Assembly: GCF_947495565.1 (NCBI RefSeq)
Contig: NZ_CANLZM010000009.1
Location: 1-64,000, forward strand
From: an uncultured Pontibacter sp.
GTDB taxonomy: Bacteria > Bacteroidota > Bacteroidia > Cytophagales > Hymenobacteraceae
Direction: 5' to 3'
Length of the DNA: 64,000 nucleotides
The notes beneath the pieces were generated by a model. That model ran no database searches and was not told where the DNA came from. It saw nothing but the letters and a program-made list of their open reading frames with translations. The position numbers were made by a program, and so were the translations under genes. Positions 33,470 to 61,810 of the stretch are shown here, piece after piece. Every line of letters begins with the position of its first letter. Positions within the stretch are counted from its first letter, which is position 1.

Positions 33470-33606
33470 GCTTTTGGTATTTTGACGCTGCCAGAGCATG
33501 TATAACTCATCAGTGGTTAAGCTTGAGCTTATACTTATTTCAGGCTGAGGGAGAAATAATGTAAAAGTTTTTGTTAATTGTATAAGCATACTTGCCGCAC
33601 CCGTTA

Positions 33607-33614
33607 TACCTTTG
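33607..33614 (+). promoter_or_regulatory. TACCTTTG promoter element of the metal-efflux operon
   Basis: An exact -7 match lies 22 bases before the ATG at 33637. It falls inside the longer open frame starting at 33592, supporting the downstream start. I see no good -33 TTG. Confidence 0.6.
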
Positions 33615-33636
33615 TAGCAAGTCTTTAACCCAACCC

Positions 33637-34074
33637 ATGAACTTATACCGCCAAATCATACTGCTAACGCTTACGCTGCTGGTGCTCGTCTCCTCGACGG
33701 GTATGGCCGTGGGTATGCATATTTGTGGCGGCGAGTTACGCGACATTACATTTTTCGGGGCTGAGGCTGACTGCCTGATGGACATGGACAAACCGCAGGA
33801 AAACGTCCCTGCCTGCCATGCTCCCCAACAGGCTGCCGAAGATGACGCCTGCTGCGAAGACCACCAGGTAATTATGGAGCGCCTGGATGTGGAGGCCAAG
33901 CACAAAACACTGTCTCTCACTAAACTGCAGGACGTACGGTTTACAGCTGTTGTAAAGGCAGTTATACTTCAGTTATTTGCTCCGGAGGCCGATCTAAAGC
34001 CTCAGTACGCTTTGTACGAGTCTCCCCCACTGGCCCGCGACATACCGGTGCTGGTGCAGTCTTTCCTTCTGTAA
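33637..34074 (+). CDS. HYC_CC_PP-like exported Cys-rich protein
   Basis: A 145-residue exported protein with a signal-type helix (about 5-25). Conserved Cys are scattered through it: C30 in HICGG, C46, C60 and a C72-C73 pair in ACCEDH. Near the end is a Pro-Pro (SPPLARDIPVL). This pattern matches the Bacteroidota HYC_CC_PP family as I remember it, usually found beside CusA/CzcA genes. A metal-binding periplasmic role is inferred from the Cys, His and Met content and the operon. The start at 33637 is preferred because a TACCTTTG promoter precedes it closely. Confidence 0.72.
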   Translation: MNLYRQIILLTLTLLVLVSSTGMAVGMHICGGELRDITFFGAEADCLMDMDKPQENVPACHAPQQAAEDDACCEDHQVIMERLDVEAKHKTLSLTKLQDVRFTAVVKAVILQLFAPEADLKPQYALYESPPLARDIPVLVQSFLL

Positions 34075-34168: not shown

Positions 34169-37100
34169 ATGTTAAACAGCATTATAAAGTTCTTTCTGGA
34201 GCAGAAACTGGTTACAGTCCTGCTTCTGCTGCTCATTGTTGGGTGGGGTATTGTAGTAGCGCCATTCAACTGGAAAGTCGATTTCCTCCCAAGCGACCCA
34301 GTTCCTGTAGACGCCATTCCGGATATTGGCGAGAACCAGCAAATTATTTTCACCGAGTGGATGGGCCGCTCACCGCAGGACGTGGAAGACCAGATCACCT
34401 ACCCCTTAACTACCTCTCTTTTAGGCATGCCGGGTGTTAAAACCATCCGTTCTACCTCCATGTTCGGCTTCTCCAGCATCTACGTTATTTTTGACGAGGA
34501 CACGGAATACTACTGGAGCCGCTCCCGCATTCTGGAGAAGTTAAACTCGCTGCCAACCGACCTGCTTCCCGATGAGGTAACCCCAAAGCTCGGGCCGGAT
34601 GCCACTGCGCTGGGGCAAGTATACTGGTATACCTTGGAGGGCCGCGATGCAGAAGGCAACCCTGCCGGAGGCTGGGACCTGCACGAGCTGCGCTCTATTC
34701 AGGATTTTTATGTACGTTATGCACTGTCCGGTGCTGAGGGTGTAGCTGAAGTGGCATCCGTGGGTGGCTATATCAAAGAATATCAGGTTGACCTGGACCC
34801 GGTGGCCATGAAGGCCAATAATGTCTCTATGATGGAGGTGATGACGGCCCTGAAAAACAGCAACCAGGATGTAGGCGCTAATACCGTGGAGATAAACCAG
34901 GTAGAGTATCTGGTGCGCGGCTTGGGTTACGTGCAGGACCTGGAGGATATTGAGGAGGCCGTGGTGAAGGTAACATCCAACGTTCCGGTGCGCATCCGGG
35001 ATATTGCCCGCGTAAACATCGGCCCCGCCGACCGCTCCATGCTGGGTGTGCTGGATAAAAGCGGAGCCGAGGCAGTGGGCGGTGTGGTTATAGCCCGCTA
35101 CGGTGACAACCCGCTGGCTGTAATCAACAACGTAAAGCAGAAACTGGACGAGATTTCCGCCGGGCTCCCTTCTAAAACACTAGCCGACGGACGCGTTTCT
35201 AAAGTTACCGTGGTACCTTTCTACGACCGCACGCATCTGATAAACGAAACGCTGGGCACGCTGAACGAGGCGATTATACTTCAGATTCTCATCACCATTA
35301 TTGTCATTATCGTGATGGTGTACAACCTGCGGGCTTCTTTGCTCATTTCGGCTCTGCTCCCACTGGCCGTTTTAATGACCTTCATCATGATGAAGCAGTT
35401 TAACGTGGATGCCAATATCGTGGCGCTGTCCGGTATAGCTATTGCCATTGGCACCATGGTAGATTTAGGCATCATCCTGAATGAGAATATTCTGCGGCAC
35501 CTGGATGAGGCCCCTCCCGGCCAGTCGCTGCTGAAGACTGTGTACAATGCCACTATTGAAGTTGCCACCGCCATACTTACCGCCGTATCTACCACAATAG
35601 TCAGTTTTTTGCCGGTATTTACACTAGAAGCAGCAGAGGGTAAACTGTTTGGCCCGTTGGCCTTTACAAAGACTTTTGCGCTGGTGGCTTCGCTGATTTT
35701 CACGATCCTGATCATGCCTGCCTTCGCCCACTCCATACTTGGGCTGAAGTCGAAGAACGTGGCCTGGTCCAAAATCCTGAATATTGGGCTGTTTGTGCTT
35801 GGCCTGGTGGCACTGTTTATACTTCCGCTGGCAGGTATCACACTGCTGCTGATTGCTGCCAATAACCTGCTCACTTTTTACCAACCGGAGCGCTACGGCA
35901 AGTATAACACCCCTGTTATGATAGGCATTGCAGTGTTGGCGGTGTCGTGGCTTTTAGCTACGCAGTGGATGCCGCTGGGTGCTTCTGTCAGCCTGATTCT
36001 CAACTTCCTGTTTATCCTGCTTGTTATCGGGTTGGTACTCGGGGGTTTTGCTTTGTTTATTGGGGCTTACCCGCGCATCCTCATGTGGTGCCTGGATCAT
36101 AAAGGCGCTTTCCTGCTGCTACCTGCTTTCATTATGCTGATAGGCCTTAATGTTTGGCTGGGTTTTAACGGCGTGTTTGGCTGGGTGGCCAACGGCATCG
36201 ACAAAACAGGAAATAACATCCGCACCACCTCTGTCTGGAGCGAGCTGGTGCATACCTTTCCGGGGCTGGGCGAAGAGTTTATGCCCTCGCTGGATGAAGG
36301 TGCTTTCCTGCTCATGCCAACCTCCATGCCGCACTCCGGCGTGGAGGCCAACAAGCGTATTGTGCAGCAGTTGGATATGTTGATTACGGCTATTCCGGAG
36401 GTGGAAATAGTGGTGGGCAAGGCAGGTCGTGCCGAAACCGCGCTGGACCCGGCTCCTATGTCCATGTATGAGAATATCATCCAATACAAATCAGAGTATA
36501 AAACCGATGTAAACGGCCAACGGATTCGCTTTAAAGTAGACGATGAAGGCGAGTATGTGCGCGACGAAGCCGGCCAGCTCATCGAAGATAAAAACGGAGA
36601 ATACTACCGCCAGTGGCGCGACCATATCAAGAATCCGGATGATATTTGGGATGAGATAGTAGCTGCGGCCAACATACCGGGTGTTACTTCTGCTCCTAAA
36701 CTGCAGCCCATCGAAACACGCCTCGTGATGCTACAAACAGGTATGCGCGCGCCAATGGGCGTAAAAGTATATGGCCCGGACCTGAAGACAATCGAGGATT
36801 TTAGCCTGCAGATGGAGCGTTTTCTGAAAGAAGTGCCTTCCGTTAAATCAGAGGCTGTGTTTGCAGACCGGTCTTTGGGCAAGCCGTACATGGAGATAGA
36901 GTTAAATCGCAGGGCAATGGCTCGCTACGGCTTAAATGTAGCCGATGTGCAGGAGTACATAGAAGTAGCGATGGGCGGCATGGCACTGACCACCACCGTG
37001 GAGGGCCGCGAGCGCTATTCTATCCGGGCACGCTATGCCCGCGAGTACAGAAACAGCCCTGAGTCTGTAGACCGTATTTTGATTACTACCGCCGGGGGGG

Positions 37101-37930
37101 CGCAGGTGCCTTTGGGCGAAATTGCGGAGGTAGTCTACCGTCCCGGCCCGATGATGATCCGAGGCGAAAACTCTTTCCTGACAGGCTATGTGCTACTTGA
37201 TAAGCGGGATGGCTTTGCCGAGGTGTCGGTGGTGGAGGATGCGCAGCGTTACCTGAGCCAGAAGATAGAGTCAGGTGAGTTGGTGGTGCCAGCGGGTGTC
37301 AGCTATAAATTCTCGGGCAACTATGAGAACCAGGTGCGTGCCGAGAAGCGGCTGTCTCTAGTTATCCCGCTCAGTTTGCTGATCATTTTCCTGATTCTAT
37401 ACTTCCAGTTCCGTTCGGTTTGGACTACGCTTTTCATTTTCACCTCCATCGCCATGGCTTTTTCCGGGGGCTTTATGATGCTGTGGCTCTACAGCCAAGA
37501 TTGGTTCCTGAACTTCTCGTTTGGCGACACAAACCTGCGGGAGCTTTTCCAGATGCGCACATTTAACCTGAGCGTAGCCGTGTGGGTTGGCTTTATCGCC
37601 CTTTTCGGCATCGCCACAGATGATGGTGTGGTAATGGGCACTTACCTAAAACAAAGTTTTGAAAGTCTGCAGCCAGAGTCGAGAAAAGGTGTGCGCAAAG
37701 CGGTGCTGGAGGCTGGCATCCGCCGTGTAAGGCCGTGCCTCATGACCACGGCTACTACCCTGCTGGCCCTGCTGCCGGTGCTCACCTCCACAGGCCGCGG
37801 CTCCGACATTATGATTCCAATGGCTATTCCTACCTTCGGAGGTATGGTGGTAGCTTTAATTACCCTGTTCATCGTGCCCGTGCTGTATAGCTGGCGCGAA
37901 GAGCTGAAAGTAAAAAAGGAAATTTTATGA
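34169..37930 (+). CDS. CusA/CzcA-type heavy-metal efflux RND pump
   Basis: Inner-membrane proton-driven exporter, trimeric partner of the CusB-like adaptor and TolC channel encoded next. It is 1253 residues, about 200 longer than CusA. Markers: [19 protein letters not shown] near the N-terminus, IAIGTMVDLGIILNENILRHL (transmembrane relay region), GLGEEFMPSLDEGAFLLMPTSMPH, and FGIATDDGVVMGTYLKQSF. The extra length lies in two places. One is a hydrophobic block at about residues 535-665 with several extra helices. The other is an acidic insert near 770-825 (KTDVNGQRIRFKVDDEGEYV). Metal specificity is not readable with certainty; the adaptor's Cys-rich head and Met-rich partners favour Cu/Ag. 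Its stop overlaps the TolC start (ATGA). Confidence 0.93.
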   Translation: MLNSIIKFFLEQKLVTVLLLLLIVGWGIVVAPFNWKVDFLPSDPVPVDAIPDIGENQQIIFTEWMGRSPQDVEDQITYPLTTSLLGMPGVKTIRSTSMFGFSSIYVIFDEDTEYYWSRSRILEKLNSLPTDLLPDEVTPKLGPDATALGQVYWYTLEGRDAEGNPAGGWDLHELRSIQDFYVRYALSGAEGVAEVASVGGYIKEYQVDLDPVAMKANNVSMMEVMTALKNSNQDVGANTVEINQVEYLVRGLGYVQDLEDIEEAVVKVTSNVPVRIRDIARVNIGPADRSMLGVLDKSGAEAVGGVVIARYGDNPLAVINNVKQKLDEISAGLPSKTLADGRVSKVTVVPFYDRTHLINETLGTLNEAIILQILITIIVIIVMVYNLRASLLISALLPLAVLMTFIMMKQFNVDANIVALSGIAIAIGTMVDLGIILNENILRHLDEAPPGQSLLKTVYNATIEVATAILTAVSTTIVSFLPVFTLEAAEGKLFGPLAFTKTFALVASLIFTILIMPAFAHSILGLKSKNVAWSKILNIGLFVLGLVALFILPLAGITLLLIAANNLLTFYQPERYGKYNTPVMIGIAVLAVSWLLATQWMPLGASVSLILNFLFILLVIGLVLGGFALFIGAYPRILMWCLDHKGAFLLLPAFIMLIGLNVWLGFNGVFGWVANGIDKTGNNIRTTSVWSELVHTFPGLGEEFMPSLDEGAFLLMPTSMPHSGVEANKRIVQQLDMLITAIPEVEIVVGKAGRAETALDPAPMSMYENIIQYKSEYKTDVNGQRIRFKVDDEGEYVRDEAGQLIEDKNGEYYRQWRDHIKNPDDIWDEIVAAANIPGVTSAPKLQPIETRLVMLQTGMRAPMGVKVYGPDLKTIEDFSLQMERFLKEVPSVKSEAVFADRSLGKPYMEIELNRRAMARYGLNVADVQEYIEVAMGGMALTTTVEGRERYSIRARYAREYRNSPESVDRILITTAGGAQVPLGEIAEVVYRPGPMMIRGENSFLTGYVLLDKRDGFAEVSVVEDAQRYLSQKIESGELVVPAGVSYKFSGNYENQVRAEKRLSLVIPLSLLIIFLILYFQFRSVWTTLFIFTSIAMAFSGGFMMLWLYSQDWFLNFSFGDTNLRELFQMRTFNLSVAVWVGFIALFGIATDDGVVMGTYLKQSFESLQPESRKGVRKAVLEAGIRRVRPCLMTTATTLLALLPVLTSTGRGSDIMIPMAIPTFGGMVVALITLFIVPVLYSWREELKVKKEIL

Positions 37931-39357
37931 AAAAGCTGATAGCAAGTATATTTCTTCTCCTGACATGCATCTCAAACCTGCAGGCACAAACCCTGGAGGA
38001 GTACCTCGTGATGGCCGGAGAAAACAACCCGCAGCTGAAAGCCCGCTACGCGGAGTACCAGGCTGCGCTGCAAAAGGCTCCTCAGGCTGGTTCGCTTCCC
38101 GACCCGGAGGCTAATTTCAGCTTCTTCCTCCAACCAATGGAAAGGCTAATGGGCAACCAGGTAGGCGATGTTTCTATTATGCAGATGTTTCCCTGGTTCG
38201 GCTCTCTGGGTGCGGCCAAGAGTGAGGCAAATTACATGGCCCAGATGAAGTTTTCATCTTTCATAGAAGCCAAAATAAACCTCTACCACAGCGTGCGCAC
38301 CACCTGGCTGGCACTGTACCAGATAGATGAGGAAGTACAGCTGCTGGAGCGTGAGCTGGAGATTCTGCAGGCGTTGGAGCGTGTGGCACTGGCTAAGTAT
38401 AAATCGGCACCGGCGGCTTCATCGCAGGGCCAGGCTAGTCAACGGCAAAGTGCCGGCGCTACTTCTTCGGCAGCTGCAGGAGGCGGCTCTTCCAGTGGCA
38501 TGGCAGGTATGGGCGGCAACTCAACCAGCGGCAGCTCCGCTTCCAGAAGCAGAAGTATGAGCAGCGGCGGTATGTCGTCGTCTATGGCAAGCTCTGGCAA
38601 CAGCATGGTAGATGTCATCCTTATCCGGGTGCAGGTAAAGGACCTTGAAAACCGTCTGCAGCTGCTCCGCGACTCCAGGAGGCCAAAAGAAGTTGCTTTT
38701 AACAGCATGCTCAACCGAGAGCATAACCTGGCAGTGCAGCTAGCGGATACATTGCAGCCAGTTGCCTTGCCTGCCTCGCTTGCCCTCATCCAAGACTCTA
38801 TCCGCCAAAACCACCCGATGCTGCAAATGTATGAGTGGGACGAAAAGGCGCGTGAATCGCAGTACCGGATGGCGCAGCTGATGGGGAGGCCGATGTTTGG
38901 CGTAGGCTTGAACTACATGGTTTTTAAACCCAGAACAGATGAAATGACACAGATGCCGATGGGCGGGAAAAACATGGTAATGCCAATGGTTACCGTTACG
39001 CTGCCCATCTATCGTAAAAAGTATAAGTCAGCCCAAAAAGAGGCTCAGTATGCACAAGAGGCGGCTGCGGCCAACAGAGAGTCCGCCGAAAACGAGCTGC
39101 TGGCAGAATTGAGCGCCCTTTTGTATGATTATCAGCGGGCCAGCAGCACCCTGCAGCTGCTAGAGGAACAAATCCGGCTGAACGAGCAGGCTATCCGGCT
39201 GCTAACCACAGATTACAGTGTGGCAGGTGCAGGCATAGAGGAAATTCTGCGGCAACGCCAGGCTATTTTAGGGTACAGGCAGCAGCAGCTGCAGGCCATT
39301 ACAGATCAGCACGTTGCCGTGTCGGCTATTAACCGGATGATGAACAGCGATAGTTAA
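37927..39357 (+). CDS. TolC-family outer-membrane channel with Met/Ser/Gly-rich tip insert
   Basis: Outer-membrane efflux protein of 476 residues with a signal peptide (ending LQAQ). The two coiled-coil repeats of the TolC fold are evident. Between the helix ending LERVALAKYKS (Y158) and the next helix (VDVILIRVQVKDLENRLQLL) there is an insert at about residues 161-226. It is made of Ser, Gly, Ala and six Met (GMAGMGG, RSMSSGGMSSSMASSGNSM). By comparison with the other TolC in this window, which reads straight through this turn, the insert sits at the H3-H4 turn, the periplasmic tip that meets the adaptor. The gene overlaps cusA-like by four bases. Confidence 0.9.
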   Translation: MKKLIASIFLLLTCISNLQAQTLEEYLVMAGENNPQLKARYAEYQAALQKAPQAGSLPDPEANFSFFLQPMERLMGNQVGDVSIMQMFPWFGSLGAAKSEANYMAQMKFSSFIEAKINLYHSVRTTWLALYQIDEEVQLLERELEILQALERVALAKYKSAPAASSQGQASQRQSAGATSSAAAGGGSSSGMAGMGGNSTSGSSASRSRSMSSGGMSSSMASSGNSMVDVILIRVQVKDLENRLQLLRDSRRPKEVAFNSMLNREHNLAVQLADTLQPVALPASLALIQDSIRQNHPMLQMYEWDEKARESQYRMAQLMGRPMFGVGLNYMVFKPRTDEMTQMPMGGKNMVMPMVTVTLPIYRKKYKSAQKEAQYAQEAAAANRESAENELLAELSALLYDYQRASSTLQLLEEQIRLNEQAIRLLTTDYSVAGAGIEEILRQRQAILGYRQQQLQAITDQHVAVSAINRMMNSDS

Positions 39358-39468: not shown

Positions 39469-41241
39469 ATGAAATCTAAAACGAAGCAAAACATAACGTA
39501 CCTGCTGATAGCTGTGGGCGGCCTGCTGCTGGGCTGGCTGATCTTTGGAGAGCGATCTTCGGAAGAGACACACGTCCACACAGCAGATGTGGCAGGCGTA
39601 ACCGAGTATACTTGCTCCATGCACCCCCAGATCCGGCAGAACAAGCCAGGCCAGTGCCCTATCTGCGGCATGGACCTGATTCCGGTAACCACAGGCGGAA
39701 ACGGTAGCGATGCGGCAAGTCCCTACGTGCTGGAAATGACCCCGGAGGCTATTGCCCTTTCTAACATCCAAACCTCGCCGGTACAGCGCGTAGACCCGGA
39801 GAATGAGCTGTTACTGTCGGGTACTGTAGAACTGAACGAACAGAAAGTTTCCTCGATCACCGCGAAGTTTCCGGGGCGCATTGAGCGGCTGTATGTTAAC
39901 TTTACCGGTCAGGAAGTGCGCAAGGGAGAAAGGCTGGCTTCTATCTACTCTCCGGAGCTGCTCACGGCACAGCGCGAGTTGCAGGAAGCGGCTAAATCAA
40001 AAGACCTGATGCCGGAATTGTACGAGGCTGCCAAAACCAAACTGAGGCTCTGGAACATCTCCAACAGCCAGATACAGCGCATTGAAAACGCTAGCGAACT
40101 GCTCACCAACTTCGATATTTACGCTGATGCCTCCGGTGTGGTAACTGAGCGCATGGTGGCCGTAGGCGATTACGTAAGCACCGGTTCCGTACTGTTTGAG
40201 GTAGCTAACCTTACGTCAGTGTGGGTGGTGCTGGATGCCTACGAAAGCGACCTCTCCTGGATTAAAGAAGGGGCTACGGTAAACTTTACGGTGCCCGGCA
40301 TTCCCGGAAAAGAGTTTACGGCCAACGTACAGTTTGTAACTCCTGTGCTCAATGCCAGTACAAGAGCAGTGCAGGTACGCGCCGAAGTTTCCAACCCGGG
40401 CAACCAGTTAAAGCCTGGCATGTTTGCCAACGCCCGCATCAAAACATCCACCAAATCAGCGGCACGCGAAAACGCACTGGCCATACAGCGCACCGCCGTT
40501 CTCTGGACAGGCAAACGCTCTGTGGCTTATGTGAAAGTGGCTGATCGTGAGGCACCTGCTTTTGAGATGCGCGAAATAACACTTGGCCCCCGCGTAGGCG
40601 ATATGTATATTATAGAGTCGGGGTTGAGTGAAGGAGAGCAAGTGGTGACCAACGGCGTGTTTGCCGTGGATGGTGCCGCCCAGCTAACGGGCAACTACAG
40701 CATGATGACAGCTCCGGCCAACAAGATGATGGAGGTGCCCGAGCAGTTTCAGCAGCAGGTAACAGCGCTGGTGGACACGTATTATACTTTGAAGAACGCA
40801 TTGGTAGCCTCTGACGCACCCGCGGCCCGCCAGGCAGCTGGCAAATTTAACCATGCGCTAAGCAAGGTGGATATGAGCCTACTGGATGGCAGCACCCACG
40901 CCAAATGGATGCAGCTGCTGCCTACGCTGCAGTCAAACGCCGGTACAATTAAGAAAAGCACGGCCATAGAGAAACAGCGTGAGGCATTCTCACCGCTCTC
41001 TGACCATCTGATTGAGGTGGTGGAGACTTTCGGCACGAACAAAGAAATTGTGTATAAACAGAAGTGCCCGATGGCGCTAGGCGACAAAGGCGCTTTTTGG
41101 CTGAGCGAGCAGCAGGAGATCAGAAATCCATACTTTGGAGAGGCCATGCTTAGCTGCGGCGAGACAACGCAAACCTTCCGAAAAGGCGCTGGTGTGCCTG
41201 CTGCTGAGAAACCAAAGCCTGTACAGCCTCACGTGCATTAA
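39469..41241 (+). CDS. CusB-type RND periplasmic adaptor with metal-binding head and DUF3347 tail
   Basis: Membrane-fusion protein of the metal pump, 590 residues. An N-terminal membrane anchor (about 10-27) is followed by a heavy-metal-binding domain at residues 47-72 (YTCSMHP...GQCPICGMDL; C49, H52, C63, C66). The adaptor core follows: SSITAKFPGRIERLYVNFTG barrel/lipoyl, a hairpin at about 165-205, and GVVTERMVAVGDYVSTGSVLFEVANLTSVWV. From about 425 to 575 there is a DUF3347 domain (QKCPMALGDKGAFWLS, EIRNPYFGEAMLSCG) with conserved Cys, probably a second metal site. The same domain is encoded alone two genes downstream. Confidence 0.92.
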   Translation: MKSKTKQNITYLLIAVGGLLLGWLIFGERSSEETHVHTADVAGVTEYTCSMHPQIRQNKPGQCPICGMDLIPVTTGGNGSDAASPYVLEMTPEAIALSNIQTSPVQRVDPENELLLSGTVELNEQKVSSITAKFPGRIERLYVNFTGQEVRKGERLASIYSPELLTAQRELQEAAKSKDLMPELYEAAKTKLRLWNISNSQIQRIENASELLTNFDIYADASGVVTERMVAVGDYVSTGSVLFEVANLTSVWVVLDAYESDLSWIKEGATVNFTVPGIPGKEFTANVQFVTPVLNASTRAVQVRAEVSNPGNQLKPGMFANARIKTSTKSAARENALAIQRTAVLWTGKRSVAYVKVADREAPAFEMREITLGPRVGDMYIIESGLSEGEQVVTNGVFAVDGAAQLTGNYSMMTAPANKMMEVPEQFQQQVTALVDTYYTLKNALVASDAPAARQAAGKFNHALSKVDMSLLDGSTHAKWMQLLPTLQSNAGTIKKSTAIEKQREAFSPLSDHLIEVVETFGTNKEIVYKQKCPMALGDKGAFWLSEQQEIRNPYFGEAMLSCGETTQTFRKGAGVPAAEKPKPVQPHVH

Positions 41242-41411: not shown

Positions 41412-42032
41412 ATGAAAAAGACATTTTTTGCAGCAGCTGTTGTAGCCGCGTTCGCCTTTACGTCATGCTCTGAGAGCAACACCGATAACACAGCGGCCAC
41501 CACAGAGCACCACGAAGAAGCGGATCATAGCGAAATGGACCATGCGCAGGCTGTGGTAGAAACACCTGACTATACTTCCGGGGCAGAGCCCGTAGAAACG
41601 CAGATCTCTCAGTTAGTGGGTGAATACCTGAAGCTGAAAGATGCTCTGGTTGCCTCTGACGCCGATGCCGCCAGAGCCGCTGCCAATGAGGTGCTGACCG
41701 TAGCCAAAGCCATGCCTGTTGCCTCCCTGTTAGATACAGAAGCGAAGGCCTTTGCCGAGGAGAAAACTGATAAAGTGATCAGCAGCGCCACCAGCATTAG
41801 CGGTGCTGCTGACATTGATGCACAGCGCGAGAACCTGGAGCAGCTTTCGGAGTCTGTGTACGCTATGGCAAAAGCCTTTGGTGCCAACGACCAGCAACTA
41901 TACTATCAGCACTGCCCGATGGCCCTGAACGACAAAGGCGGCTATTGGCTGAGCTCTAACGAAGAGATCCGTAATCCATACTTTGGCGATAAAATGCTGA
42001 AGTGCGGCAGCACAAAAGAAGTGCTGGACTAA
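41412..42032 (+). CDS. DUF3347 lipoprotein, candidate metal chaperone
   Basis: A 206-residue lipoprotein (lipobox FTSC, Cys19) with a His/Glu/Asp/Met-rich linker (EHHEEADHSEMDHAQ, about 32-46). A DUF3347 domain covers about 60-206. Its C-terminal signature, YQHCPMALNDKGGYWLS through NPYFGDKMLKCG, nearly repeats the tail of the CusB-like adaptor. The paired Cys and the Met and His nearby fit copper binding. It is last in the operon and followed by a terminator. Inference: it delivers periplasmic copper or silver to the adaptor that carries the same domain. Confidence 0.88.
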   Translation: MKKTFFAAAVVAAFAFTSCSESNTDNTAATTEHHEEADHSEMDHAQAVVETPDYTSGAEPVETQISQLVGEYLKLKDALVASDADAARAAANEVLTVAKAMPVASLLDTEAKAFAEEKTDKVISSATSISGAADIDAQRENLEQLSESVYAMAKAFGANDQQLYYQHCPMALNDKGGYWLSSNEEIRNPYFGDKMLKCGSTKEVLD

Positions 42033-52462: not shown

Positions 52463-52490
52463 TTAACAAACTGTTTAATTTTATACAACT

Positions 52491-53846
52491 GTGATCAAGA
52501 AATATTTTTTAATCGGCATGATGGCGCTCGTCCTGAAGCCAGCCTTTGCCCAGGAGCCAGCCACTGGCGGACAGGTGCAGGAGCTGACGCTGCAGGAAAG
52601 CATAAAGTATGCGCTGAGCAACAACCAGGATGTTAAAAAAGCGATTTACGACGAGCAGATCGGCACGCAGCAAATCCGGGAGGCCAGAAGCCAGGGACTG
52701 CCACAGGTAAGCGTTTCCGGTGGAGTAGACTACTATCCTGCCCTGCCAACTCAGATTTTACCCGGCGAACTGGCCGGAATGCCTGGTCAGGACATACCTG
52801 TTAAGTTCGGTAAAGACTATAACGCCAACGGCAACGTACGCCTGACGCAGCTGCTCTTTAACCAATCATACTTTGTGGGGCTAAAAGCCGCCAAAACAAC
52901 GCAGGACCTTTACCGCCTGAGAAGAGAAATGGCTGAGGAAGACCTGATCTATAACATCAGTACGGCTTACTACCAGACGCTGCAAACCAAAGAGCAGTTC
53001 GAGAATATTGAGGCTAACCTGCAGCGACTGACGGAACTGGAGCGCATCATGGAGCTGCAGTACCAGAACGACCTGGTGGCCAAGGTGGATGTAAACCGCA
53101 TAAAAGTGAACAAGACAAACCTGCAAAACCAGTTGCAGACCTTAACCACTTCTTTCGAGCAGCAGAAGAACATTCTGAAGTTCTTTATAAACATGCCGCT
53201 GGAGCAGGAAATCGCCCTTACCAATGAAACAGGAGGGATTGACAATGTAGTGACTGAAGCGATAACCGCAGAGCAGGCTGCTGCACAAAAAACGCAGTTC
53301 CAGTTATTGCATACCCAGAAGCAGCTGCAGGGCTACAGCATTAAAAATGTACAGGCTGGCTACTATCCTACTTTGTCTGCTTATGGCCAGTATGGCTATA
53401 ACACCCAACGCGACGAGCTTTTCGGTTCGGACGTGCCGTGGTTTAAGACCTCTGTGGTAGGCCTGCAGGTTAACATCCCGATTTTTGATGGCTTTAGAAA
53501 AGACGCTCAGGTAAAGCAAGGGCAACTGGAGCTAAAGAAAACGGAAGAAGATATCTCCAAGCTGGAGACAAACACGGCTGTTGAACTGACAAACGCGCTT
53601 GCCCAACTACAGAACAGCGAAAGCTCCATTGAGGTGCAGCGACAGAATGTAGACCTGGCGCAAGAGGTATACAACACAACCAATGACCGGTACAAGGAAG
53701 GCATTTCGCCACTCACCGACCTGCTGGAAGCAGAGGTAAGCCTACGCGAGGCCAAGACAAACCTTAACAACGAGAACCTGAAGTATAAAATAGCCCAGCT
53801 GAACTATCTGAAAGCCAGAGGCGAGTTACAAATATTAACACAATAA
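52491..53846 (+). CDS. TolC-family outer-membrane efflux channel
   Basis: A 451-residue TolC protein with a GTG start. The signal peptide (IKKYFLIGMMALVLKPAFAQ) needs this start, because the next ATG is at codon 10. Both coiled-coil repeats are complete, with the H3-H4 turn LQYQNDLVAKVDVNRIKVNKTNLQNQL and the H7-H8 turn NDRYKEGISPLTDLLEAEVSLREAKTNL. It is first in a three-gene pump operon, with the adaptor 20 bases downstream. Confidence 0.93.
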   Translation: MIKKYFLIGMMALVLKPAFAQEPATGGQVQELTLQESIKYALSNNQDVKKAIYDEQIGTQQIREARSQGLPQVSVSGGVDYYPALPTQILPGELAGMPGQDIPVKFGKDYNANGNVRLTQLLFNQSYFVGLKAAKTTQDLYRLRREMAEEDLIYNISTAYYQTLQTKEQFENIEANLQRLTELERIMELQYQNDLVAKVDVNRIKVNKTNLQNQLQTLTTSFEQQKNILKFFINMPLEQEIALTNETGGIDNVVTEAITAEQAAAQKTQFQLLHTQKQLQGYSIKNVQAGYYPTLSAYGQYGYNTQRDELFGSDVPWFKTSVVGLQVNIPIFDGFRKDAQVKQGQLELKKTEEDISKLETNTAVELTNALAQLQNSESSIEVQRQNVDLAQEVYNTTNDRYKEGISPLTDLLEAEVSLREAKTNLNNENLKYKIAQLNYLKARGELQILTQ

Positions 53847-60266: not shown

Positions 60267-60832
60267 TATGGTTTGTTTTCTGAATTAGACTAAAGCAGCC
60301 GCATCAGCGTGCTGCAGCTGGCTAAGGTGCGCGCTGCCTTGGAAGCAGCTGTTTAATTGTGCGTTCACCAAAGCAGCGTAAAGTTCTTGTACTACCTTAC
60401 AGGCCTGTTGGTTGCCTGCTTTTGAACAAATAATGAGCTTGAGAACCTATCAAGGCAATAACACATGTTTCACCTCATTAAAAATTGCACAATATAAAGT
60501 ATGATTATTTTAAACGCTTAGCGGTAACGTAGAAAGGAATGTTAAAGTGGCAAGTTTCTATACGCAACACAGATTTTATAATGGTGCTCAGTATGGCGTT
60601 GATGACTGTTTAAAATTACCTCAGCCACCTTTCATTTTTGAAAGGAAGATTAGCGGATTATTGGCCTAAAAACTCAGAAAAAACAACACCTGCCTCAAAG
60701 GCTTCGGCACATGCCTTATACTTCCCGGACCTGCTCCCCTAAGAATACTGGAACCAAATTGGCTCAACCCATGCTGCGCCTTTCCGTTAAGAGTATAGAG
60801 TAAATTGCTTGTAAAATTTAAACCAGAAAGCT
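60267..60832. other. Long gene-free spacer
   Basis: A 566-base spacer between divergent genes. I found only short, unconvincing open frames (for example about 41 codons from a GTG near 60546). There is no tRNA or structured RNA that I recognise. The start of the next gene is at 60833. Confidence 0.45.
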
Positions 60833-61810
60833 ATGAATTCAGATTATTCTAACCGAGCCGACAGAGACGAGAACCGCGGATTTAAGACGCACCGTTCCGA
60901 GCGCTACAGGCACCCGGAGCAGGACAGCAGCTATCATTTTGATGACTATGGTTCTTCTGCTCGCGGCGGATACGGAAACGAGAGCCACACCGGCACCTGG
61001 GGCAACCAAGGCAACGAAATGGGCGGCTCACGCAACACCAGCAACCAAGGAATGCGTGACACCTACAGCACCTCCCGCAACTATGGCAACATGGGCAGCT
61101 ACGGCGGTGCGCAGGGCTTCGGCGACTCCAGGGGCGGATACTCCTCACAGCGCGAGCGCGGCCATGAATATGATAGTGGTATGGGTTCGAGAGACAATTC
61201 TGGCCAAGGGCGCCGCAGAAGCTATGGCTACGAAAGCGACTACGACAGCCACGGATCAGGTTACAAGTATGATTCTCACCCTGATTTGTACGGATCAGAT
61301 ACCTCACGCCGGTTCCAGGGGTCCTCAGGGCAAGGCCGCTACGACTTTGACAGGGATAACTATAACCAAGGCAGCGGCAGCTTCCGCAGCTCTGACAGAG
61401 ACCGTAACAGAGGCAGAGACAGAGACTATCGTGGATCGTCTTCCTCTTCTAACTATGGTGGCTCACAGGGCAGCTACATGGGCAGCGGCTACAACCGCTC
61501 ATCAAACCGCGACTACAACTCCGGCAACTATGGCTCTATGGGCAGCTACGACAGCGGAAGCTCAGGCAGAAGCTACGGAGAATCTTCTGACTCAATTGGC
61601 TACAGGGGCAGCCGCCATACAGAATACCCGAACGACACCTACGCACGCGACGCTGACAACAGCCGTATACAGCACCGCGACAGCGACTACGACTATGATC
61701 CAAACCGCAGTTTCAACGCCCGCAAAGATCCGTACTACATTACAAGCCACAACCGTAACCGCACTTGGACACAGGATCGGAACAGAGATAGAAATAACGA
61801 AAGATATTAA
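60833..61810 (+). CDS. Long low-complexity Gly/Ser/Tyr/Arg/Asp-rich protein
   Basis: The 325-residue product is almost devoid of hydrophobic residues and dominated by Gly, Ser, Tyr, Arg, Asp and Asn. It has recurrent pieces such as SYGGAQGFGDS, YGYESDYDSHGSGYKYDSH and NYGGSQGSYMGSG. There is no signal peptide or membrane segment. It resembles the protein at 2100-2801 in composition and style, and may be a paralogue. Strong predicted disorder and Tyr/Arg spacing recall condensate-forming or RNA-binding domains, only by analogy. An overlapping 292-codon frame is a by-product of the repetitive composition. A strong terminator follows. Confidence 0.75.
   Translation: MNSDYSNRADRDENRGFKTHRSERYRHPEQDSSYHFDDYGSSARGGYGNESHTGTWGNQGNEMGGSRNTSNQGMRDTYSTSRNYGNMGSYGGAQGFGDSRGGYSSQRERGHEYDSGMGSRDNSGQGRRRSYGYESDYDSHGSGYKYDSHPDLYGSDTSRRFQGSSGQGRYDFDRDNYNQGSGSFRSSDRDRNRGRDRDYRGSSSSSNYGGSQGSYMGSGYNRSSNRDYNSGNYGSMGSYDSGSSGRSYGESSDSIGYRGSRHTEYPNDTYARDADNSRIQHRDSDYDYDPNRSFNARKDPYYITSHNRNRTWTQDRNRDRNNERY

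Follow-up and report, generated by a model that had tools for sequence, protein, structure and literature searches.

A Met-spaced, predicted flexible loop at the inner mouth of a CusC-like channel from Pontibacter

The window, i.e., the whole stretch of DNA that was analysed, comprises 64,000 nt from an uncultured Pontibacter sp. (GCF_947495565.1, NZ_CANLZM010000009.1, positions 1-64,000). It carries on its forward strand an operon in the order HYC_CC_PP protein, CusA-type RND pump, channel, CusB-type adaptor and DUF3347 protein. The first gene product, of the HYC_CC_PP family (33592..34074, +), was recognized by NCBIfam NF047658, and the CusA-type HME-RND pump that follows (34169..37930, +) scores 787.8 bits against TIGR00914, where the cut-off is 701. 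In the columns of the Met triad, which we take to be M573, M623 and M672 of E. coli CusA, this pump has a three-Met site in LLM, MSM and VML contexts. Beyond the channel lie the CusB-like adaptor (39469..41241, +), in which Pfam and AlphaFold2 (AF2) place an HMBD, an HlyD_D23, a short helical hairpin (helices at residues 162-176, 182-194 and 199-207 of the model) and a DUF3347 domain, and a separate DUF3347 protein (41412..42032, +; Pfam). The operon is thus of the Cus type, having a CusA/CzcA-family pump next to the channel, the three-Met site and a CusB-type adaptor.

The channel between pump and adaptor (37927..39357, +) is a CusC-like outer-membrane protein of the OEP/TolC family, 476 aa long, whose ORF matches PF02321 in two stretches (Pfam; E 5.5e-32, 111.5 bits against a gathering score of 22). 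An AF2 model of the monomer, computed from the window's channel and 50 relatives (51 aligned sequences), reached a mean pLDDT of 81 and a pTM of 0.70, and shows the two beta hairpins (S1 61-73, S2 76-88, S3 323-334, S4 350-358) and the long helix pairs (H3 93-160 with H4 222-261, H7 363-433 with H8 437-472) of the TolC fold, with matches to 1EK9, 3PIK and 9RMM; TolC, SilC and CusC tie as its best structural matches. In this model H3 (38203..38406, +) reaches the periplasmic tip, H4 (38590..38709, +) bears a conserved MVDV near its start, and the turn between H7 and H8 consists of residues 434-436 only (39226..39234, +), so that, as the first-pass annotation had stated, this other turn is normal and has no insert.

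The H3-H4 turn, by contrast, contains a Met/Ser/Gly-rich insert at residues 161-226 (38407..38604, +), which are bounded by AKYKS and MVDV; the length from anchor to anchor is 75 residues, whereas insert-less relatives mostly have 13 and at most 17. The model agrees with the earlier placement of the insert in this turn, with helix up to residue 160, predicted disorder (pLDDT < 50) at 165-221 and helix again from 222, and by its topology puts the insert at the periplasmic tip of the channel. The insert had been described as about 65 residues with six Met; the insert itself was borne out (66 aa by strict count), and its Met number five (192, 195, 211, 216 and 220), the supposed sixth, M227, being part of the MVDV at the start of H4 and outside 161-226. 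Two of the five form the conserved MxxM motif M192-A-G-M195 (38500..38511, +), which was seen in the Met columns of same-genus orthologues and in diverse inserts, and M211, M216 and M220 form a second group (38557..38586, +); there is neither His nor Cys. No tandem repeat was detected in the DNA, and a search by sequence among solved structures returned two low-complexity matches and nothing else. The second OEP of the window (52479..53846, +, as a stop-to-stop frame; ORF 52479-53843), which had been said to lack an insert, indeed has a turn of 13 residues in the alignment, as do 10 of the other 11 OEP proteins that were found in the genome, the remaining one (L162) being below the family cut-off and aligned unreliably.

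Conservation was followed with a search of 204 genomes of the family, 31 of which gave a match at E <= 1e-30, all of them in the same genus. The match was full-length, at E 3.7e-194 or better, in 28 of the 31 (the window's included), and three genomes (G147, G188 and G193) gave only split, insert-less matches. One genome (G178, contigs C10 and C2) gave two full-length matches, at 79% and 68% identity, the second of which was judged by its continuous match. The insert, which was to be doubted if close orthologues lacked it or had it without Met, is present with Met in 27/27 same-genus orthologues read, and the window protein and these 27 span 71-83 residues from anchor to anchor. Three Met columns inside the insert, i.e., both Met of the MxxM and M220, are conserved in 28/28, and the M216 column is kept at 0.82 within the genus. 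Across aligned pairs of the 28 inserts the retention of Met is 0.78, as compared with 0.07 under random placement, and that of other residues is 0.45 (Ser), 0.53 (Gly), 0.49 (Pro), 0.38 (Ala) and 0.26 (Thr); Met is therefore the best-kept residue of the insert, although its single codon allows no silent changes.

The same preference is seen in a set of 43 diverse, non-redundant inserts of 37-74 aa, in which Met makes up 8.9% and His and Cys do not occur. The pattern M..M is present in 38 of the 43 and MxM alone in one; the four with neither include L200, which has a single Met. Shuffling, which ignores shared descent, gave 17.2 expected M..M pairs against 51 observed, and 18.0 expected MM against none observed, with 0/1000 shuffles as extreme in either case. 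When the first M..M of each insert was removed, the further M..M were no longer significant (11 against 7.8 expected; 151/1000 shuffles as high), so that most of the spacing signal comes from a single motif that may be shared among relatives by descent; MM was still at 0 against 8.0 expected, and MxM was mildly raised (14 against 8.0; 24/1000 shuffles as high). No MM occurs in the 66 full-length inserts read, and it occurs in one of five shortened inserts (L050). As far as can be judged from sequences, conservation and spacing of Met speak for a Met-based function of the insert.

As a background, the ORFs of at least 200 aa on the fetched loci, some of which may not be genes, were screened for similarly Ser/Gly-rich stretches of 60 aa. 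Eight non-channel ORFs among 946 have such a stretch, with 0-3 Met each, and four of the eight are mutually related; the corresponding stretch of 64 channels (near-duplicates included) has 3-9 Met. The Met-richest of the eight is an ORF of the window itself (60815-61807, +) that is rich in Gly, Ser and Asn and whose spaced Met number 3 in 60 residues. The insert is confirmed as more than a chance feature.

Further searches with the window's channel covered an order sample of 390 genomes, a phylum sample of 395 genomes and GTDB contigs, and added members that include Botryobacter, Parapedobacter, Litoribacter, Belliella, Lunatimonas and Bacteroidales MAGs. Because the sample is what a search with the window protein finds, its proportions are not those in nature: 132 channels remained after removal of redundancy at 97%, and the length from anchor to anchor was 40 residues or more in 60 of them, at most 18 in 67 and intermediate in 5; at 85%, with six distant rows and incomplete rows dropped, there were 100, i.e., 43 insert-bearing, 4 with a shortened insert and 53 insert-less. 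When the insert and the outer loops were left out of the tree, the 47 insert-bearing rows all fell into one group of 55 rows together with 8 insert-less ones (SH-aLRT 92, under the 95 at which a branch is starred). Four changes explain the distribution, one of the insert-less groups having a long branch, and one gain with three losses has moderate support, its direction depending on the root. A plasmid search gave 5 records, none above 60% identity. Judged by these sequences, a long floppy loop with spaced Met appears to be present at the inner mouth of the channel in many Bacteroidota.

The insert-bearing clade also has Met-rich hairpins, namely PMERLMG at 38107-38190 and MTQMPMGGKNMVMPM at 38893-39000. 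According to the alignment and the AF2 model, the window's channel has Met71 and Met75 in the S1-S2 hairpin (38107..38190, +) and Met340, 343, 345, 350, 352 and 354 in the S3-S4 hairpin (38893..39000, +), and both hairpins would, by analogy with the TolC fold, face the outside. Mean Met numbers in insert-bearing as against insert-less channels are 4.0 vs 2.2 for S1-S2 and 6.5 vs 2.7 for S3-S4 (80% non-redundancy). On the tree the association of Met-rich outer loops with the insert comes mainly from one clade, with three independent pairs on starred branches, and is not significant.

The partners of the channel were compared in the same way. The CusA Met triad, considered as a correlate of the insert, proved uninformative, being present in 132/132 pumps read (the window's and near-duplicates included), beside insert-bearing (65/65), shortened (4/4) and insert-less channels (63/63) alike. 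The proposal that Met-rich tips go together with DUF3347 adaptors did not hold, the domain being found in 32/40 adaptors beside inserts and 37/50 beside insert-less channels (Fisher p 0.62; matches at E <= 0.001; from the 43 and 53 representatives, three of each were dropped for want of a readable adaptor, and those beside the four shortened inserts were left out). HMBD is present in 40/40 and 50/50, respectively, and the two kinds of adaptors share their main domains. Since triad and adaptor domains are alike with or without the insert, the insert does not define a Cus system, and since insert-less Cus-type channels with the same triad are common, it is an optional elaboration and not essential. 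One adaptor of each group has a DUF2911 match besides the adaptor domains, and the unusually long adaptor ORFs (770 aa in L188, 759 aa in L214) likely carry this domain.

A search of the window's genome for CusF (PF11604) gave no match at E <= 0.001, with E. coli as the control genome giving a match; CusF was above the cut-off in 10/390 genomes of the order sample. Of the 93 order-sample genomes with a channel match at E <= 1e-25, for which the best few candidates per genome were scored, 52 were insert-bearing (49 by a continuous match, three by shortened inserts read) and 41 were others, with the insert state read in 15 of these 41 and always at 13 residues. CusF was found in 0/52 and 5/41, respectively. 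These counts were rejected as a sign that the insert replaces CusF, since all five CusF genomes belong to a single genus and are not independent evidence.

A second Cus-type operon in the same genome (contig C16, locus L246) belongs to a system that 30 of 50 same-genus genomes (G000, G147-G195) possess; 28 of the 50 have the insert system, 8 have both and none has neither, a near exclusion with a Fisher p of 1.3e-7 in which kinship is ignored. Matches in G150, G166 and G169 (E about 1e-41) adjoin insert channels, are thus adaptors of the first system and were excluded from the count. The channel of the second system has a short tip in 21/21 loci read (L246 and 20 more). Its adaptor (L246:5964-7286, -) has, in 30/30 loci read, an Ala/Ser/Gly/Pro-rich loop with 2-4 Met in the barrel-sandwich domain, often with paired Met as in GGGMDAMGG, which interrupts the HlyD_D23 match (102-222, followed by HlyD_3 from 266); M..M occurs in 24/30 of these loops and M..M or M...M in 28/30. 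With one Met loop in the channel tip and the other in the adaptor, the two alternative pumps would place a flexible Met loop near the adaptor-channel junction in different subunits; that the adaptor loop lies close to the junction and does the same job as the insert is something we infer.

The CusA of this second system is split into two adjacent ORFs (L246:8513-11719, -; also L277-L296) in 21/21 loci read, one of ~430 aa ending in VMVEN.YRHLA.. and one of ~635 aa whose first ATG is at M-L-..-R..IIE. From the first stop to that ATG there are 19-460 bases, in the same or in different frames, and the two halves in L246 correspond to PF00873 positions 2-416 and 413-1019. The split is conserved and can hardly be a sequencing error; among the best 10 of 86 papers listed, none reports a split HME-RND pump.

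The reading that we lean towards, by a little, takes the insert for a tethered brush of Met, disordered and binding Cu(I)/Ag(I) weakly, at the mouth of the channel. Provided that the channel forms trimers as TolC and CusC do, three copies, with 15 Met in all for this species, would hang at the adaptor-channel junction, and would bind and rapidly exchange the ions via the conserved MxxM pair and the second Met group. Such a brush would concentrate at the channel entrance ions released by CusA or coming in from the periplasm, and might stand in for a soluble chaperone such as CusF. The trimeric state, the side of the barrel taken by the loops, the metal binding and the direction of transfer are presumed here. 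The brush builds on the H3-H4 position in the model, the predicted disorder, the retention of Met against drift, the absence of His and Cys and the Cus-type context without a CusF match; it is further favored by the excess of M..M, the absence of MM, the CusA triad next door, the lower Met content of Ser/Gly stretches elsewhere and the adaptor loop of the second system. Against it stand the many insert-less channels with the same triad, the spacing that comes mostly from one motif, the four of 43 inserts without M..M or MxM, the single Met of L200, the MM in the shortened L050, and the protein core, which is itself Met-rich (5.7% compared with 9.3% in the insert). A broader version, in which a movable Met-brush module sits at the adaptor-channel junction of some Cus pumps, on the channel tip or, by convergence, on the adaptor of the alternative system, is more tentative, and we would rather doubt than assert it.

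The H3-H4 turn is the adaptor-facing tip in tripartite pumps, and the insert might therefore be an element for docking or gating, in which Met would serve as flexible hydrophobic stickers on the adaptor hairpin or would plug the closed mouth, metal being irrelevant. In E. coli CusC, according to the available part of PMC3017539, Leu403 closes the periplasmic end, which is of a relatively hydrophobic character; this would suit such a role. A hydrophobic sticker should, however, accept changes from Met to Leu or Ile, yet Met is kept, and the insert contains little Leu, Ile or Phe (0.6, 0.8 and 0.2%); the adaptors, moreover, have the same main domains beside both kinds of channels. Docking or gating is in our judgement unlikely. 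Still less probable is a neutral spacer of low complexity, which a permissive turn allowed to grow and in which Met are passengers. The length and most residues of the insert do drift among same-genus orthologues, and several lineages of the clade have lost or shortened it, but it persists over a wide clade, Met is best kept although any change of its codon alters the residue, MM is avoided in full-length inserts, and the few similar stretches elsewhere are poorer in Met. That surface Met form a sink for oxidants, shielding the pump from copper-driven oxidation, is very improbable, since ready oxidation of Met and the oxidative nature of copper stress leave the fixed MxxM spacing, the avoidance of MM and the placement at the mouth unexplained.

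A metal-binding brush would bear on how Cu(I)/Ag(I) passes from the pump or the periplasm into the exit channel, and the loop suggests that the channel itself catches metal ions rather than being a passive pipe. If the broader version with a movable module is true, the exit duct would act as a relay that binds metal, and for this part of the Bacteroidota CusC could no longer be viewed as an inert pipe. Otherwise alike channels with and without a Met-rich mouth form a natural set, which makes the question testable in one gene, and the loop is short and hydrophilic, so that metal binding should be measurable on a peptide. The mirror-image loop in the adaptor would mark the disordered Met brush as a building block that metal pumps can reuse.

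A Met-rich or disordered insert at the tip of a TolC-family protein was not described in the literature searched, a weak negative given its partial coverage, nor in the available parts of PMC3017539, PMC8277102, PMC12509749, PMC10092412 and PMC13082787. The window's channel has the same fold as E. coli CusC (3PIK; VIA-align Z 28.5, rmsd 3.4, 377 aligned) and SilC (9RMM; Z 28.6, rmsd 3.6, 377 aligned) at 12% identity in the structural alignment, and the type of partner is shared as well, namely a pump of the CusA family that has Met at all three site positions. The gene order is CusA, channel, adaptor in the window and cusCFBA in E. coli, and the window's genome has no CusF match. CueO, a periplasmic copper protein, has a Met-rich insert that binds Cu(I)/Ag(I); it differs in being an oxidase, not a channel. 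The ectodomain of hCtr1 is alike in having a Met-only motif in its N-terminal region; MxMxxM is called Cu(I)/Ag(I)-selective in the part of PMC9117721 at hand. It differs as an unrelated eukaryotic copper importer with additional His and ATCUN motifs. For E. coli CusC, the available part of PMC3017539 judged substrate-binding sites unlikely, with only three scattered Met on the inner surface, and proposed diffusion inside the duct; no metal was found bound in crystals after soaking with Cu(I)/Ag(I), which by analogy counts against the brush, and no such insert is described there. The closest precedent for a brush may be the His/Met-rich disordered domain of PcoB from Caulobacter, which, going by the available part of PMC12509749, raised cell copper when its Met or His were mutated. 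The Met mutant accumulated copper yet was not copper-sensitive, a point against the brush, and a minimal set of His was needed. Both are disordered, Met-containing and probably periplasmic segments of a copper outer-membrane channel that tolerate changes of sequence and size (PMC12509749, in part); the domain of PcoB is N-terminal, on a beta-barrel, and has more His than Met, whereas the insert of the window sits in an internal turn of a TolC-type channel and has Met but lacks His.
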